Source: a virus
DNA: 54,711 bases
Virus record (IMG/VR): IMGVR_UViG_3300046513_000178
Location: 1-54,711 of that record
Strand: one strand, 5' to 3'
The translations under genes were made by a program, and so were the position numbers. A model generated the notes under the pieces. It saw nothing but the letters and a program-made list of their open reading frames with translations. It was not told the DNA's origin and made no database searches. Every line of letters starts with the position of its first letter. The stretch's first letter is position 1. Positions 6,122 through 25,683 of the stretch are shown here, piece by piece.

Positions 6122-6903
6122 CCCGCGACATCACTACCCAGCCCCGTTCCGTCTCTCAGACCCAGCAGTACGAAGACTGCGCCTGGAAGTTCTACCTCCA
6201 GCGTGTTGAGCGGGTAGTGCCCGTACCTGCCGCCTGGAGTGCGCATGGCACGGCCTTCCACAGCGCCGCTGAAGCCGTCGAGAGGTCGGGACGGACCATG
6301 ACAGCGGAGGAGGCCGTACAGCTCTTCTCCGACCAGTACAGCGCCCTGGTGAACAAGGCCCTGGACCAGGAGCCGAACACGGACCGGTGGCTGTCTGCCA
6401 ACGGCTCTGGCGGCGAGGACATCGAGCGCCGGTACGTCCTGGGCCAGGAGCACACACGCCGGTATGTGGAGTGGGCCCAGGAGAACCAGCCGGCCATCTG
6501 GATGACACCCAGCGGGGATGACGCGCTGGAGCTGTATTTCAAGGTGGAGATCGGAGGAGTCCAAGTCCGCGGGTACATAGACCAGTTGGTTTTGGACCCG
6601 GACGACACGGTGCGGGTCCGTGACCTGAAGACCGGCACCACCAAATCGAAGTTCCAGCTTCACACGTACAAGGTGGCTGTCGAGAAGGTCTACAACGTCC
6701 CTGTGAACAAGGGGGATTGGTACCTCGCCAAGAACGGGGGACTGTCCCGAGTCGTAAAGCTGGACGAGGTGACGGATGAGCAAGTGGGAGAGAGGTACGC
6801 CGCGATGGATGCAGGAGTCAAGCGAGGCGACTTCCCGGCGAAGCCTGGCTTCCTCTGTCGTTTTTGTGACATGAGGCACGCCTGTTCTTTTTCACGCCGC
6901 TAA
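6118..6903 (+). CDS. Cas4/RecB-like PD-(D/E)XK nuclease with Fe-S cysteines
   Basis: 261 aa from TTG 6118. The PD-(D/E)XK core is visible as His in 'HGTAFHSAAE', Asp in 'GYIDQLVL' and the D-x-K of 'RVRDLKTG'. One Cys near residue 21 (EDCAWKFY) plus three at the C-terminus (CRFCDMRHAC) match the one-plus-three cysteines that hold a [4Fe-4S] cluster in Cas4/AddB-type nucleases. Such phage exonucleases process DNA ends in recombination or replication. A RecA/DnaB-like ATPase follows. Confidence 0.88.
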   Translation: MTRDITTQPRSVSQTQQYEDCAWKFYLQRVERVVPVPAAWSAHGTAFHSAAEAVERSGRTMTAEEAVQLFSDQYSALVNKALDQEPNTDRWLSANGSGGEDIERRYVLGQEHTRRYVEWAQENQPAIWMTPSGDDALELYFKVEIGGVQVRGYIDQLVLDPDDTVRVRDLKTGTTKSKFQLHTYKVAVEKVYNVPVNKGDWYLAKNGGLSRVVKLDEVTDEQVGERYAAMDAGVKRGDFPAKPGFLCRFCDMRHACSFSRR

Positions 6904-6904
6904 A

Positions 6905-6934
6905 GTTGCTTCGGGAGAAAATCCGAGGTAAGCT
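6905..6934 (+). promoter_or_regulatory. Motif copy 2 with a -10 hexamer at 17 bp (promoter)
   Basis: GTTGCTTCGGGAG begins two bases after the nuclease stop. TTGCTT (6906-6911) is followed after exactly 17 bp by TAAGCT (6929-6934), a good sigma-70-like promoter. Predicted transcription starts near 6941, and a GCCCGC-TGA-GCGGGC hairpin with TTAACTTT follows at about 6950-6970. The initial transcript could therefore be attenuated before the next motif at 6983. Confidence 0.68.
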
Positions 6935-6982
6935 AAGAGTAGGAAAGAGGCCCGCTGAGCGGGCTTAACTTTAGCCACAAAA

Positions 6983-7012
6983 GTTGCTTCGGGGGGTCGG
7001 GAAACCGGCCCC
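6983..7012 (+). promoter_or_regulatory. Motif copy 3 with GAAA-tetraloop hairpin
   Basis: GTTGCTTCGGGGG (6983-6995); its G-run is the 5' arm of GGGGTCGG-GAAA-CCGGCCCC (6993-7012, one G-T pair, GNRA-type loop). It sits 18 bp before the start codon of the ATPase gene, so the structure would lie in the leader just upstream of the ribosome-binding site. Confidence 0.6.
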
Positions 7013-7029
7013 TCAAGGAAAGGTGACTG

Positions 7030-7845
7030 ATGTACTCGCTCGCACAGAGCATCGGAGTCAAGGGAGCGGCCGGCGAGCCGCTTCCCAGCCCCTTCAAGGG
7101 ACTCCAGAAGCAGGAAGTCGAGTTCCGCCGAGGTGAGTTCAGCCTCGTAGCCGCTGGCCCTGGTACGGGTAAGTCGCTCTTCGCTCTCAACCTGGCCATG
7201 TACGGCAACCTGCCCTGCCTTTACTGGTCCGCGGACTCCGGGGCCGCTACGCAGCTCTCACGCGCCACGGCCATCATCACGGGCGACAGCGTGAAGAGCA
7301 TCAAGAAGAAGCTGGTAGACGACGACTTCGGCGACTACGTGGGAGCCCTCGGTCAGCGCTGGTGGGTCCGCTTCAACTACGACGCCAGGCCCTCACCAGC
7401 CGACATGGAACGTGACCTCGCGGCCTATCACGAGGTGTTCGGCTGCTACCCGCATCTGTGCGTAGCCGACAACATCACCAACATCGACGGAGGCGAGGTC
7501 GGCGACGCCGAATCCTTCACCTTCGGCCTGGAAGGTATGTGCGAATACCTGGCCGAGATGGCTCGGGAAACCAAGTCGCACGTCCTGGCCCTGCATCACG
7601 TGGTCGGAGAATTCTCCGATGGACTCAAGCCCATTCCGCTCAGTGGCGTTAAGGGCAAGATCGGCCGAGTGCCGTCGCTCATCCTCACCATTCACAAGGA
7701 AATCGACGGCATGGACAGCACCATCCTCCATGTGAGCGCGGTGAAGAACCGCGAAGGCATGGTCGATGCGAGTGGCGAGACGTTCTCCTCGTACGACTTC
7801 AACAGGACCAACATGCGTCTTACTGATATCGACGCTGAGTTCTAA
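7030..7845 (+). CDS. RecA/DnaB-type P-loop ATPase (replicative helicase or recombinase)
   Basis: 271 aa from ATG 7030, with AAGGAAAGGTG upstream. Walker A is at about residues 43-49 (GPGTGKS); Walker B-like 'HLCVADNI' and the 'SHVLALHHV' and 'SLILTIHKE' strands follow the RecA fold of DnaB/KaiC-like ATPases. It lacks a DnaB N-terminal domain, as is common in actinophage single-domain helicase or RecA-like proteins. It lies between the nuclease and the primase, consistent with a replication role. Confidence 0.85.
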   Translation: MYSLAQSIGVKGAAGEPLPSPFKGLQKQEVEFRRGEFSLVAAGPGTGKSLFALNLAMYGNLPCLYWSADSGAATQLSRATAIITGDSVKSIKKKLVDDDFGDYVGALGQRWWVRFNYDARPSPADMERDLAAYHEVFGCYPHLCVADNITNIDGGEVGDAESFTFGLEGMCEYLAEMARETKSHVLALHHVVGEFSDGLKPIPLSGVKGKIGRVPSLILTIHKEIDGMDSTILHVSAVKNREGMVDASGETFSSYDFNRTNMRLTDIDAEF

Positions 7846-11937: not shown

Positions 11938-13944
11938 ATGACGTTCCCTACTGAGACCGCCCAGACCGTCTACGAGCGCACCTATCGGCGCGAGAAGCCG
12001 AACGGGGACCTGGAGACCTGGCCCGAGACTGTACGTCGAGTCGTGGACGGCAACCTCGCCCTTGTTGCGCCGCGCTACATCGAGGCGGGCGAGCGTGACG
12101 CCCTGGTCGAGCTGATCGAGAACTTCAAGCTGCTGCCCGCAGGCCGGCACCTGAAGTCGAGCGGTGTGAACGACTACGCGCTCAACAACTGTTGGGCCGC
12201 TGGCTGGGACTCCAGCAAGCCCGAGGAGCACTTCTCCTTCACATTGCTCCGCCTCGCTGAAGGAGGCGGTGTCGGCAGCAACTATTCGAACCGGTACCTG
12301 CACGACTTCCCGACTGTCGAAAACGCCCTGCGCGTCCACATCGTGTGCGACCCCTCGCACCCGGATTACCTCGACATGGTGGAAGCCGGTCTGATCTCCA
12401 CCGAGTACGCCTACACGTGGGCTGGTGCCTACGCGGTAGAGGACTCGCGGCAGGGCTGGGCAGACGCCCTGTCCGACCTGATCCGGACCGCACACCGCAC
12501 GGACGTGCAGCACGTGAACCGGGTCTACGACGTGTCCCGGGTCCGGCAGAAGGGTGCCCCCCTGAAGTCGTTCGGTGGCACCGCGAGCGGTCCCCAGCCG
12601 TTCGCCGAGCTGCTGATCAACGTCGGGCAGATCCTCAACGACGCGGCAGGCTGGCCGCTGTCGGGCATGGACGCTATGTCGATCGACCACGAGATAGCCC
12701 GCTGCATCGTGTCTGGGGGCGTTCGCCGGTCGGCTCGTATGTCGATCATGCATTGGGCTGACGGACAGATCGAGTTGTTCTTGGCGTCCAAGGCCGACAT
12801 GACGCAGCACTGGACCACCAACATCAGCGTCGAGATCGACACCGACTTCATCGAGAAGGCGAAGGCAGGCGACTACAAGGCCACTCAGGTACTCGCGCAC
12901 CTCGCCGAAGGTGCACTCTCCAACGGAGAGCCCGGCTTCTGGAACAGCAGCCTGACCGCAGAGGGGGAGGTCGACGGCACCTTCACGACCAACCCCTGTG
13001 GAGAGGCGACCCTCACCCCGTGGGAGCCGTGCAACCTCGGCTCGGTCAACCTGGGTGCGTTCGCGGACCGGTCCGGCCTGGTCGATCACGAGGGCCTGGA
13101 GCAGGCCCACCGGCTCATCACTCGGTACCTGATACGTGCCACGTGTGCTCCGGTGGAGGACCCCAAATCCGCGGCAGCCATCGCGAAGTACAGGCGAATC
13201 GGGGTGGGTCATCTCGGCTTCGCCGATTACCTGGCCAAGCAGGGCATTCGGTATTCGCAGGCGTTTGACGACTTGGGCGTGCGGGCGGACCTTCGTCTGT
13301 TCGCGGATGCCGTGGACAAGGCGGCGCGTGAGTACGCCAACATCATGCGCATCCCGGTCCCGATCAAGTCGCGGGTGGTTGCCCCCACGGGCACCACTTC
13401 GAAGGTGGCCGGCGCGTCGGGTGAGGGCATCCATGCTCCGTTCGCGACGTTCTTCAACCGGCGAATTCGGTTTTCCATGCTGGAGCCCGAGGAGGCCAAG
13501 AAGGTGGAGGAGTACAGGGAGAAGGGCTATCAGGTGGAGCCGTGCATCTACGCGGCGAACACCATGGTCGTCACCATCCCGACGAAGGACCCATTGGTGG
13601 ATCAGGTCTTGGACCCGTCCTACGTCGAGCATGCCGGGCAGCTCACCCTTGAGCAGATGCTCTCCGTACAGGCCCTCTACCAGGAGCTATGGGCCGACCA
13701 GGCGGTGTCCTACACGGCCTCCGTCGACCCGTCCAAGTACGACCAGGAGGACGTGATGGAAGTCCTTCTGCGGTTCATGCCCGAGCTGAAGGGGTCCACG
13801 ATCTTCCCCGAGCTGAGCCGTGCCCAGGCTCCGTACGAGCGGATCACCGAAGAGGAATACCGCAGGCAGGCAACTGCCCGCGGAATAGAGGTTTCTGACA
13901 CCTCGTATGACGAGGTCTGTGCGTCAGGTGCCTGTCCCATTTAA
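11938..13944 (+). CDS. nrdJ: Ribonucleotide reductase, adenosylcobalamin-dependent (class II)
   Basis: 668 aa from ATG 11938 after GAAAGG. Converts ribonucleoside triphosphates or diphosphates to deoxy forms using adenosylcobalamin. Seen: 'NNCWAAG', 'GGGVGSNYS', the active-site loop 'TNPCGEATL...CNLGSVNL' (about residues 350-370), 'APTGTTSKVAGASGEGI', and the C-terminal redox pair C-x4-C (VCASGACPI). No beta subunit is present, fitting class II. With ThyX and dCMP deaminase it supplies dNTPs for phage replication. Confidence 0.95.
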   Translation: MTFPTETAQTVYERTYRREKPNGDLETWPETVRRVVDGNLALVAPRYIEAGERDALVELIENFKLLPAGRHLKSSGVNDYALNNCWAAGWDSSKPEEHFSFTLLRLAEGGGVGSNYSNRYLHDFPTVENALRVHIVCDPSHPDYLDMVEAGLISTEYAYTWAGAYAVEDSRQGWADALSDLIRTAHRTDVQHVNRVYDVSRVRQKGAPLKSFGGTASGPQPFAELLINVGQILNDAAGWPLSGMDAMSIDHEIARCIVSGGVRRSARMSIMHWADGQIELFLASKADMTQHWTTNISVEIDTDFIEKAKAGDYKATQVLAHLAEGALSNGEPGFWNSSLTAEGEVDGTFTTNPCGEATLTPWEPCNLGSVNLGAFADRSGLVDHEGLEQAHRLITRYLIRATCAPVEDPKSAAAIAKYRRIGVGHLGFADYLAKQGIRYSQAFDDLGVRADLRLFADAVDKAAREYANIMRIPVPIKSRVVAPTGTTSKVAGASGEGIHAPFATFFNRRIRFSMLEPEEAKKVEEYREKGYQVEPCIYAANTMVVTIPTKDPLVDQVLDPSYVEHAGQLTLEQMLSVQALYQELWADQAVSYTASVDPSKYDQEDVMEVLLRFMPELKGSTIFPELSRAQAPYERITEEEYRRQATARGIEVSDTSYDEVCASGACPI

Positions 13945-19674: not shown

Positions 19675-19812
19675 TTGAGCACCTTCGAGCCGATCAGTGT
19701 TGACGACTGGGTGACGCGGGAGCTGGGCAGCATTCTGCCTCTGCCCGAGGAAGCTAACCGAGAACTGCGAGCGATCCTCGGCCTTGCTGAGCACTCGACT
19801 TACGAGGGATGA
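19675..19812 (+). CDS. Small protein, paralogue of the 22017 gene
   Basis: 45 aa from TTG 19675 with GAGGAGA upstream. It overlaps the 3' end of the integrase on the opposite strand by about 59 bp. The pattern 'VDDWVTRELGSILPL' matches 'VDEWVSKQLETLLPS' of the 22017 gene on the other side of the integrase/attP. Small proteins of this type occur next to integrases of actinobacterial mobile elements; function unknown. Confidence 0.62.
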   Translation: MSTFEPISVDDWVTRELGSILPLPEEANRELRAILGLAEHSTYEG

Positions 19813-21427
19813 CCTTGATCAGGTTGGCGTCGAACGGTGCCCTCTTAGACCGACCCTCGGGGATGGGCAGGATGATCGCGGCGTGCATGATGCGGCCTAT
19901 GGCCATGCGCTTCTGAGTCAAGTCCATCCCATCCCACTTCGACCGGTCCCAACCGGAGTAGGTGTTGTTCGCGGCCTCGATCGCCGCGTGTTCCCTGCGG
20001 TCCTCTTCCAGGGTCGCAATCTGCTCTTCAAGCTGCGGCGTCAGCCGGTAGAACTGGTCGTCCGACACGGCTCCCTCCATCCATCTGGATTCGAGGGAGT
20101 CTTTTTTCGTTTTCAGGGCCGCCAGCTTCTCTTCGCCCTCCCACGGAGTCGTCTTCGCCTCCGCGTGCTTGAACTCCGCTTCAAGGGCCCGCTTCACCAG
20201 CTCTTCAAGGAACTCATCAACCTTCTGCAAGCTGCGGGCCGTCTTCCCGCAATCCAAGGTCACGCACTGATAGACGCAGTTGTCCGGGTTGCTCTTCGTC
20301 GGCCGGCGCACCCCTCCCATCTTGGCGTTGCAGATGGCCTTACCGTCTCTGCGAGTAGCACCACACCGCAGGAAGCCGCTGAAGAGGTACTTGCGTGCAC
20401 GGGATTCGGGGGCACCAGGAACCTTGCCTCCGCCGTTGGTCAGACGCATGCCCCGCTGTGCTCCGCGGCGCTTTGACAGGTCGCGGATCGCTTCCCACTC
20501 TTCAACCGTGGCAATCGTCTCCCACTTACCCATGACCGGCTTACCCGTCTTGGCGTCCTTGACGATCTCGCCGTGTACCTGGCGCATGCCGCAGATCACG
20601 GGATTGACGAGGAGCTGGCGGACCGTTTCTCCGTACCAGGGCTTCCCGGACGCTCCGACCGATCCCAGTTCGTTGAGGTCTCGGGCGATCGTCTTCCAGG
20701 CTTTGCCTTCGAGAGCCCAGTCGATCATCTTGCGGACGTAGGGGGCCTCGGCGGGGTCGAGGACCATGTTCACGGCCCGGCCCTCTTTGGGGTCCTGGGC
20801 GAGCCAGCCGAAGCGGCGTCGGCCGCCGGGAGTGGTGCCGTCCTGGGCACGTCTGCGCATGTTGCGCAGGATGCGTTCCTTCGTCTTGGAGACCTCGCCC
20901 TCGGAGACTCCCGAGTTGACGAGTCCGACGATGTTGCCGCCAACGCTGTGGATGTCGTAGGGCTTGCCCCGCTCGATGAAGATGCCGTCCGGCTCGGAGA
21001 TCACGGCGCGACGGAAGCGGATGTAGTCCTCGGGCAGTCGCCAGACTCGCTCGTACTCGGTGGCGACGATGGCGCGGACGGGGAAGCCCTCGGGGACCTT
21101 CCGGTGGAGCATGGCTCGGGTCATCTCGCGGAAGCTGGGGCGGACGATGTCCGGATCAGCCGCGGTGATGTTGTTGTCCTCGTAGAAGCGGACGATGGCG
21201 ATGCCGTGCTCTGCCGCTGCCTCTGCGTTGCCCTCGTGCTGGTGCCGGACTCCTCGCCCCTTCTCCTTCGTCTTGGCACTGGTGCTGGATCTGAGGGCCT
21301 GGTCCCCAGAGATCCGGGCGTAGTCGATGCCCGGTATCCGGTCCCCTAGCCACTGCTCGAAGGTCTGCCCCTCGGACAGGGCTCTGACCAGGTCAGGGTT
21401 CAGGTAGCTGCGCGAGGTGCCCGCCAT
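19754..21427 (-). CDS. int: Large serine integrase (site-specific recombinase)
   Basis: 557 aa from ATG 21427 with GGAGG upstream. The N-terminal resolvase domain has the catalytic Ser in 'YARISGDQ' (about residue 40) and 'RAIVATEYERVWRLPEDY'. A recombinase domain follows (VNPVICGMRQVHG), then a zinc-binding domain with C-x(n)-C pairs (FLRCGATRRDGKAICNAK...CVYQCVTLDCG) and a C-terminal coiled coil (LAALKTKKDSLESRWMEG...LEEQIATLEEDRREH). It would integrate the phage by attP x attB exchange. Leftward, 60-100 bp from the attP candidate. Confidence 0.97.
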   Translation of the reverse strand: MAGTSRSYLNPDLVRALSEGQTFEQWLGDRIPGIDYARISGDQALRSSTSAKTKEKGRGVRHQHEGNAEAAAEHGIAIVRFYEDNNITAADPDIVRPSFREMTRAMLHRKVPEGFPVRAIVATEYERVWRLPEDYIRFRRAVISEPDGIFIERGKPYDIHSVGGNIVGLVNSGVSEGEVSKTKERILRNMRRRAQDGTTPGGRRRFGWLAQDPKEGRAVNMVLDPAEAPYVRKMIDWALEGKAWKTIARDLNELGSVGASGKPWYGETVRQLLVNPVICGMRQVHGEIVKDAKTGKPVMGKWETIATVEEWEAIRDLSKRRGAQRGMRLTNGGGKVPGAPESRARKYLFSGFLRCGATRRDGKAICNAKMGGVRRPTKSNPDNCVYQCVTLDCGKTARSLQKVDEFLEELVKRALEAEFKHAEAKTTPWEGEEKLAALKTKKDSLESRWMEGAVSDDQFYRLTPQLEEQIATLEEDRREHAAIEAANNTYSGWDRSKWDGMDLTQKRMAIGRIMHAAIILPIPEGRSKRAPFDANLIKVIPRKSSAQQGRGSLAVLG

Positions 21428-21444
21428 GACGTAGCCTCCATGTA

Positions 21445-21469
21445 GTTGCTTCGGGAGTTGCTTCGGGTG
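21445..21469 (+). promoter_or_regulatory. Tandem GTTGYTTCGRGGG motif between int and attP
   Basis: Two copies with 12-bp period (21445 and 21457), both on the + strand, directly upstream of int, which is on the minus strand. TTGCTT of the second copy is followed at 17 bp by TTCATA (21481-21486), a weak -10 that would point through attP into the cbs segment. Bound protein here could also block the int promoter. An identical tandem occurs at 25684. Confidence 0.65.
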
Positions 21470-21486
21470 ATCGTAGCAGCTTCATA

Positions 21487-21528
21487 CATGTTTGCCGATT
21501 GACTAAGACGAGTGGATCGGCCAACATG
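21487..21528. other. attP: attP candidate for the serine integrase
   Basis: A 42-bp imperfect dyad: CATGTTTGCCGAT (21487-21499) and ATCGGCCAACATG (21516-21528) match at 12 of 13 positions. Inner ACT/AGT (21502-21504 and 21511-21513) are also symmetric. The centre is G21507-A21508, a non-palindromic dinucleotide as needed by large serine integrases. Its length and arm spacing fit known attP sites, and it lies just upstream of int. The cbs reading frame begins exactly at the central GA. Confidence 0.75.
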
Positions 21529-21974
21529 GGTTCAGCGAAGACACGGCGACGGAGCCGACCGCAGGAGACGTACTGAAGCAGAAGGAGGGAGGCGGCATCC
21601 CGAACTTCGTACACATGCACCCCACCGAGACCGTTGGGGCCGCAGTTGAGGTACTGAGGGAGTTCGGGGTATCGCAGATGCCGGTAGTGGCAAAGGGTGC
21701 TGGGCATCCCGATGTGATGGCCCCCGAGGTGATCGGGGCGGTGGACGAGCGAGTGTTGCTTCACGCACTCTTCGCCGATCGCGCCGGGTCAGGGGACCCG
21801 ATCGAGAAGCACATGAGCCCGCCACTGCCGGTTGTCGGATCGGGAGAACCGGTAGCACGGATGATGTCCGTGTTGGAAGGACGGGACGCGGCGGTGGTCC
21901 TGGTGGACGGCAAGCCCACCGGAGTGATCACCCGCCAAGACCTCTTGGCCTTCCTTTCCGACTCCACCGGCTGA
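21507..21974 (+). CDS. 3' segment of cystathionine beta-synthase: CBS-pair regulatory domain
   Basis: 155 codons open from the attP centre, with a TAA immediately before. The sequence DEWIGQHGF...AGDVLKQKEGGGIPNFVHMHPTET...LREFGVSQMPVV...HMSPPLPVVGSGE...GKPTGVITRQDLLAFLSD follows the C-terminal hinge and tandem CBS (Bateman) domain of actinobacterial cystathionine beta-synthase, beginning at the Asp of the hinge 'FND-x-W'. The PLP catalytic domain is absent. The first ATG (21615) has only a distant AAGGAGG and starts after homology has begun, so expression is probably by fusion to the host gene after integration. Confidence 0.85.
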   Translation, partial: DEWIGQHGFSEDTATEPTAGDVLKQKEGGGIPNFVHMHPTETVGAAVEVLREFGVSQMPVVAKGAGHPDVMAPEVIGAVDERVLLHALFADRAGSGDPIEKHMSPPLPVVGSGEPVARMMSVLEGRDAAVVLVDGKPTGVITRQDLLAFLSDSTG

Positions 21975-22016
21975 CAGCACGTCCCCTGCGGGACAAGACC
22001 TGTGCGGAGGAGAACC

Positions 22017-22166
22017 ATGGCTAAGAAGATCGAGACCTACCCGACCGTGGACGAGTGGGTTTCCAAGCAGCTCGAAACGCTGCTCCCGTCCATAGACCGG
22101 GACACCTGGGCAGAGCTGTGGACCGTCCTGAACCCGGACAGCAGCCACCAGGCCGAAGCAGCCTGA
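22017..22166 (+). CDS. Small protein, paralogue of the 19675 gene
   Basis: 49 aa from ATG 22017 with CGGAGGAG at good distance. 'TVDEWVSKQLETLLPSIDRDTWAELWTVL' matches the 19675 product. It follows the cbs segment by 42 bp and is closed by a terminator at 22186, so in a lysogen it would be co-transcribed with the hybrid cbs gene. Function unknown; excisionase or recombination directionality factor is one untested idea. Confidence 0.7.
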   Translation: MAKKIETYPTVDEWVSKQLETLLPSIDRDTWAELWTVLNPDSSHQAEAA

Positions 22167-22185
22167 CTCCTCCGCCTCAGCTAGA

Positions 22186-22210
22186 CGCCCCCGGCCATCG
22201 GCCGGGGGCG
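22186..22210 (+). terminator. Terminator after the cbs/22017 unit
   Basis: CGCCCCCGGCC-ATC-GGCCGGGGGCG, perfect 11-bp stem with a 3-base loop, 19 bp after the 22017 stop. A poor T-run follows (CTGTGCTGT). Confidence 0.7.
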
Positions 22211-22418
22211 CTGTGCTGTCTACGGCGCGAAGCGCCCGCGAGGGTTCGGACTCGCGCACAGGGGGCCTGTAGCGCGTGCAGACATGAGGCGGCCCCGATC
22301 GGCTCGGGGGAGAAACGACCGGGGCCTAACCAGCGGGCAGTACTCGGGGGGGAGACCACTGCCACGCTGGCACCCTTCGGGTGCCCATATGCGCTGGGCA
22401 TACTCATTCAGACACAGA

Positions 22419-22451: not shown

Positions 22452-22547
22452 ACTGCGACCCAGGAACACTGCGTTGCCCCCGGACCGTGGCACAGCTTAT
22501 TTCATTCATTCCCTGGGCGTGTGGGAGAGCTACAGCAGCCGTTGAAG

Positions 22548-24893: not shown

Positions 24894-25683
24894 AGTGCAT
24901 AAGTAACAGCTCATCAGACTCTCTGTCTGAGGGTATATAAACCCCTTACAAAAAAGATGTATGTGTCAGCGGGCACTTTTAGAGGACGTCAGAGCCTCAA
25001 AGTGTGCCGCGGATCACCCCCACCCTCTTAATTCATTCATTCAGATGCCCTGACGAGGCGTCAGCGAGCCCAAACGGGCCGGTCAGAGGCCCTGAGAGCC
25101 GCCAGGAGGGCCCAGAAGGGGGTCTGAGGGGGGTTGGGAGGGGTTAGGGGCCGACAGGCCGGCACCGAGCTGTCTGCGGGCTTCAAATTCCTTAAACTCG
25201 TACACGTATCGAGGACAGCACCCCCGGTGGGTCCTCTCTGTATGCATGTATGTATTACCCCCGTGTGTGTATGTGTATGCACGAATGAATGAATACCTAT
25301 CCGGGGGCTTTATTCATTCACTCAGGCACGAGGGGTGAGGTAGCGCTCACGCTCGGCAACGTTCGGTGTGCTGGCCGGACGGTTGGGGGGTGCCTAGGGG
25401 TGCCGACAGGGCTACCTACTGGCGAGTAATGGTCAAGTGTGTGTAAAGCCTGGACCATGAGCGACCCAATGAATGAATAAAGGCAGGGTCAAGTCGAGGC
25501 CCTTTAGGTAAAGCATAGGCAAAGGTAAATCGCCGCCTTTGGACGTGCCAGCCCTTCCCTATGTGGCCTGCGTCACAGGGGTGGGGGGTATAAGTGTCCG
25601 TATTACCCACCTATGCCATATTGACATTCCCCTGCATGGTGATCTATCACGCGCATCTTCCCTACTTAGAGTGTGGGCAGGAA

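Follow-up and report, generated by a model that had tools for sequence, protein, structure and literature searches.

Gene-targeting integrases and replacement sequences

Bxb1 and the SCC elements encode large serine recombinases that act within a host gene or at its 3' end: Bxb1 integrates into groEL1 and alters its C-terminus, and the SCC elements target rlmH and preserve only its last codons. The E. coli prophage e14 is lambdoid and encodes a tyrosine integrase. It resides inside the metabolic gene icd and supplies the 3' end of this gene, the displaced native end surviving as a 163-bp pseudogene (PMC6379469). e14 in icd is an example of a known principle, the replacement sequence in attP, which keeps an integrase-targeted gene functional and is the usual layout (PMC10111431). 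The phiJoe-type elements of Streptomyces have a serine integrase and an attB inside a conserved gene, 74 bp from the gene end; no replacement domain is described for them, and some strains keep the recombination genes only (PMC5311408).

The DNA analysed here, referred to as the window, is the whole 54,711-base stretch of virus record IMGVR_UViG_3300046513_000178. The window lacks an end repeat and includes tailed-phage genes (tail, tape-measure, DNA polymerase and ribonucleotide reductase). At the attP site of a large serine integrase it carries the 3' end of a cystathionine beta-synthase gene (cbs), encoding the hinge and the regulatory Bateman (CBS-pair) domain. The phage shares its class of recombinase with Bxb1 and the SCC elements, neither of which is known to replace a domain. 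Where e14 provides a short and conservative 3' end, this phage provides a whole regulatory domain of 465 bp that is approximately 66% identical to the native one, and it does so with a serine recombinase. Being a Streptomyces-type phage, it resembles the phiJoe-type elements in its integrase, its association with Streptomyces, its attB inside a conserved gene and the occurrence of reduced elements, and differs from them in having a replacement domain. Like the elements of the TIGER/Islander literature (PMC10111431) it carries replacement sequence in or next to attP, but it differs from these in the 155-codon length of that sequence, in its divergence from the target and in its recurrence in hosts after prophage loss.

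The sequence-only reading of the window had called this layout unusual on the grounds that serine integrases usually disrupt their target. The premise is too strong, since a replacement sequence in attP is usual for gene-targeting integrases (PMC10111431); the layout is unusual in the size and divergence of the tail and in the use of a serine integrase, but not in the replacement sequence itself. In the open-access literature searched there is no report of a serine integrase with an attB in a cystathionine beta-synthase gene, nor of a whole regulatory domain being exchanged by a serine integrase. As far as searched, what is new here is that a serine integrase brings in a whole regulatory domain, about 66% identical to its native counterpart, which has repeatedly stayed behind in hosts.

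The attP site and its attached gene end

The features of the region are collected in Table 1. The integrase has a Resolvase catalytic domain (PF00239) followed by a Recombinase domain (PF07508), both above cut-off, and matches the PHROG integrase family with an E-value of 3e-61. The attP dyad sits 59 bp upstream of the integrase start. Its arms match at 12 of 13 outer positions and at 15 of 20 positions over their full length around the centre GA (21507-21508), which reproduces both the arm match and the centre reported from the sequence alone. The dyad ranks best in the surrounding 150 positions, where the runner-up reaches 10/20, and arm matches of at least 15/20 occur at only three positions in the entire window. 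The 11-bp core at its centre is found in 33 of the 35 native cbs hinges fetched. As is typical of serine integrases, the imperfect dyad beside the integrase gene has recombinant half-sites in a host: its left half is recovered in the attR of Streptomyces turgidiscabies Car8, and its right half in the attL of Car8 and of a second genome, G646 (Streptomycetaceae). Other Streptomyces encode integrases of about 39% identity, and cbs sequence is absent from their loci. A perfect 12-bp tandem repeat (AGTTGCTTCGGG, two copies at 21444-21467) lies between the integrase start and attP; its Car8 counterpart is degenerate.

Table 1. Coordinates of the integrase, attP and cbs-tail features in the window
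Feature	Position	Strand	Description
Large serine integrase gene	19754..21427	(-)	557 aa, P0001; Pfam Resolvase + Recombinase, PHROG integrase
attP dyad	21487..21528	(.)	CATGTTTGCCGATTGACTAA-GA-CGAGTGGATCGGCCAACATG; 42 bp, imperfect
In-frame TAA directly 5' of tail	21504..21506	(+)	read from sequence; blocks read-through from upstream in free phage
attP/native cbs common core	21507..21517	(+)	11 bp, GACGAGTGGAT; codons D-E-W-I/M; crossover region
Start-less cystathionine beta-synthase 3' end, hinge + Bateman (CBS-pair) domain	21507..21974	(+)	155 codons + stop
49-aa ORF just 3' of tail	22017..22166	(+)	kept in G646, stop-interrupted in Car8
GC-rich hairpin 3' of 49-aa ORF	22187..22209	(+)	GCCCCCGGCC-ATC-GGCCGGGGGC, read from sequence

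The frame that opens at the dyad centre does run for 155 codons to the stop at 21974, and three comparisons agree with its earlier assignment to the hinge and CBS-pair domain of actinobacterial cystathionine beta-synthase. It matches the C-terminal part of TIGR01137 only (profile positions 312-457 of 457, E 2.3e-33), it contains the Pfam CBS domain PF00571 (E 4e-12), and its full length aligns with the PDB chain of M. tuberculosis CBS (residues 309-463; Rv1077, E 2.5e-38), which is the closest solved structure and has the same hinge and Bateman layout (PMC9232105). The PLP catalytic domain is absent, as the sequence-only reading had claimed: the phage frame scores 115 bits against the TIGR01137 cut-off of 510, which the chimeric cbs of Car8 clears at 686 bits. 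The nearest cellular relatives of the tail are Streptomyces cbs genes. Because of the in-frame TAA directly upstream and a first in-frame start only at ATG 21615, the tail is without a start of its own. No sigma-70-like promoter is found near it by a scan covering part of the Streptomyces promoter types, and together with the absent start codon and the upstream TAA this makes the tail look silent in the free phage.

The 49-aa ORF downstream of the tail has no PHROG match and would in a lysogen be placed downstream of cbs in the same direction. Recombination directionality factors of some phages are small proteins encoded near the integrase gene (PMC5311408), which makes this ORF a candidate for such a factor. 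The hairpin that follows is a possible terminator; it is devoid of a T run and is not among the terminators listed by the scan.

Chimeric cbs genes and displaced native ends

The closest integrase in the genome collection, and the only one this near, is encoded by Car8 (88% identical). It sits 3' of a complete 462-codon cbs, the arrangement that the sequence-only reading had proposed to look for in Streptomyces genomes, and between two att half-sites. The Car8 gene is host sequence up to the 11-bp core and shares 95% identity with the phage tail over its last 154 codons; the junction reads ...GRGYLSKIFN-DEWIGQHGF... in protein and ATCTTCAACGACGAGTGGATCGGCCAACATG in DNA, and attL is AAGATCTTCAACGACGAGTGGATCGGCCAACATG. 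In attR, on the far side of the integrase start, a second, native-type cbs 3' end, 66% identical to the phage tail, follows directly on the phage left arm CATGTTTGCCGATTGA. This displaced end is near-complete; its frame meets a stop codon at the junction and shifts after GFL. About 2.3 kb, including the integrase and the other half-site, lies between the two tails. Window-like DNA in Car8 is confined to segments corresponding to 21507-22313, 19778-21486 and a short piece of 25181-25290, the other prophage DNA being gone. Of 12 positions in the attR core (L004 1270-1330), 5 deviate from the expected junction, with matching bases on either side, and the junction has therefore decayed. With the native tail frameshifted and the attR core altered, native cbs could no longer be recovered by excision. 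A structure prediction for the Car8 chimera, based on an alignment of 10 rows, gives a pLDDT of 44 and a pTM of 0.30 and is not used as evidence here.

In G646 the tail of a 462-aa cbs is 99% identical to that of the window. The phage-derived DNA runs on as far as position 22518 of the window, the integrase is gone, and 52 codons of the native tail are left 2.3 kb downstream. The fusion of a host 5' part to the phage tail at the hinge Asp, which had been predicted, is hence present in Car8 with the integrase between the halves and in G646 without it, in both cases on the basis of decayed prophages of relatives; the in-frame join gives a complete gene in each. In a third genome, G170, the phage-type tail has diverged further, and about 1 kb of other DNA separates it from a native tail that has decayed. 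On its minus strand, that intervening DNA (L080 2600-3130) encodes a collagen-like Gly-X-Y stretch, and it has no DNA match to the window; it may be a later insertion or derive from a different phage. Native-tail remnants thus lie downstream of phage-type cbs in all three genomes, and are near-complete but frameshifted in Car8, partial in G646 and decayed in G170. Among the genomes searched, one per species, neither an intact prophage in cbs nor an integrated copy of this exact phage occurs; what is present are decayed remnants of relatives.

It is proposed, with a probability of about 0.92, that a temperate phage swaps the 3' third of cbs by serine-integrase recombination between attP and the cbs hinge and that loss of the prophage leaves the tail behind. 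According to this proposal attP would sit at the 5' boundary of a copy of the cbs 3' third that has neither promoter nor start codon, and the integrase would recombine attP with the conserved hinge codons of host cbs, acting as attB, to yield the predicted junction GACGAGTGG. The phage hinge and Bateman domain would then continue the reading frame of the host catalytic domain under the host promoter, and the native 3' end would come to lie beyond the far end of the prophage. Since the in-frame fusion yields a full-length chimeric enzyme, the target gene would stay complete in the lysogen, and subsequent decay of the prophage would leave the phage-derived tail as the only regulatory domain of the cell. 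The sequences themselves show the layout of attP and tail, the chimeric cbs genes, half-sites that match, native tails in displaced position and phage-type tails scattered among hosts.

The native-tail remnants in three bacterial genomes show that phage integration can exchange the entire regulatory domain of an enzyme central to metabolism, and that the new domain can stay fixed in the host once the phage is lost. This is a concrete route to modular protein evolution, and it provides natural paired chimeras in which to probe how a Bateman domain determines allosteric regulation. A serine integrase whose att site is predicted to leave its target gene complete would also serve Streptomyces engineering.

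Breakpoints and conservation of the tail

Among approximately 700 distinct genomes drawn from the genus Streptomyces and the family Streptomycetaceae, eight have phage-type tails (Car8, G646, G170, G274, G659, G022, G677 and G683), and an order-level draw adds none. Their hinge motif is DEWI/DDWI..QHGF, as opposed to DEWM.DYGF in native genes. When each chimera is compared with its nearest native relative, a changepoint in divergence falls at gene nt 932 in seven of the eight genes, the first base past the 11-bp identity (nt 921-931), with support intervals of 925-934 or narrower (at most 10 nt) in Car8, G646, G170 and G659. This fits a crossover within the common core, where the dyad centre predicts it. 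The window and G646 tails differ at 22 bases; 18 of these are third codon positions, and one amino acid is changed. The resulting dN/dS is 0.05, and 0.09 against Car8, although selection in the phage phase is not separable here from that in the host phase as the tail has partly evolved in host chromosomes. For the catalytic part, dN/dS between Car8 and G646 is 0.03.

These data bear on the idea that the tail is a captured host fragment without a role, picked up beside the integrase gene by imprecise excision or transduction, and that the host chimeras arose by homologous recombination. Phages do acquire pieces of host genes, and the tail has its nearest cellular relatives in Streptomyces cbs. 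However, the tail begins at the dyad centre, the breakpoints of the chimeras lie at the att core, the reciprocal half-sites flanking the Car8 integrase are not expected from homologous recombination, and the protein sequence encoded by the tail is conserved (dN/dS 0.05-0.09), which together make this explanation very improbable.

Distribution of phage-type tails

In a tree of the tails, the nine phage-type sequences (eight genomes and the phage) form one clade with support of 100/98, and the native tails are joined by the displaced ones from Car8 and G646. The catalytic domains of these eight genomes are spread over their own tree, and the AU test rejects a single clade for them (p 2.4e-6). 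Without the deep-branching G022, G677 and G683 the p-value is 0.027, and for G170, G274 and G659 alone it is 0.065, so that the number of separate swaps is uncertain; more than one among the eight genomes is likely. The catalytic tree places Car8 and G646 next to each other with weak support (61/76), yet the G646 tail is nearer to that of the phage (dS 0.18) than to that of Car8 (dS 0.25).

A phage that merely copied tails native to some Streptomyces lineages, with vertical descent accounting for their presence in hosts, would be compatible with G022, G677 and G683, which lie deep in the catalytic tree, have no native remnant and show a weak breakpoint; these three may represent either old swaps or the lineage that donated the tail. 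For all eight genomes taken together, vertical descent is refuted by the native-type remnants downstream in Car8, G646 and G170, and G274 and G659 pair phage-type tails with native-type catalytic domains, leaving it hardly credible. The notion that integration simply breaks cbs, with the phage tail restoring nothing and excision reactivating the gene, as is described for several serine-integrase elements, such as those in sigK (skin, PMC5025042) and gerE (PMC5595907), can practically be dismissed, since in Car8 and G646 it is the chimeric frame that is complete and fully open, the native end is the broken one, decayed or truncated beyond rescue by excision, and the catalytic parts are still conserved (dN/dS 0.03).

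Possible regulatory consequences

In M. tuberculosis the Bateman module governs tetramerisation and activation by S-adenosylmethionine (SAM), and its removal converts CBS into a constitutively active, SAM-insensitive dimer (PMC9232105). Extrapolated across genera, this phenotype implies that a hinge cut leaving no tail would be expected to deregulate the enzyme rather than abolish it. The tetramer residues E388, R450 and L454 are kept in the phage-type tails. At the SAM site, E390 is replaced by V in eight of nine phage-type tails and is E in 34 of 35 native ones, and S393 corresponds to H in phage-type and D in native tails. W433 is R in all nine phage-type tails and A in all 35 native Streptomyces tails, and as the native enzymes also do without this residue the M. 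tuberculosis site map may not transfer. Given the differing site residues, altered SAM control of the chimera is plausible. We infer from sequence comparison that the integrase acts on the attP and cbs sites, that the chimera is functional and that the phage benefits. A more specific suggestion is that the swap is a form of lysogenic conversion, in which a different response to SAM or another nucleotide ligand would reset cysteine and H2S metabolism for the phage and hosts would repeatedly have kept the domain after prophage decay; this is tentative and on present evidence rather doubtful.

Related viral sequences

In scans of viral contigs with the integrase, the tail and the tail alignment, IMGVR_UViG_3300047472_000178 is the sole near-identical contig. 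Two further viral contigs matched the DNA pattern of the phage-type hinge; these are chance matches and encode no tail. The ribonucleotide reductase of the phage is encoded at window positions 11938-13944 (+) and matches PHROG 367 with an E-value of 3e-236. The single tail match in the phage collection, MT836143, carries no orphan tail, as its gene at 6340-7710 of MT836143.1 (locus L048) encodes a full-length cystathionine beta-synthase including the catalytic domain. The record is an unannotated and unverified 'Bacteriophage sp.' entry from human faeces and is probably bacterial chromosome rather than phage.
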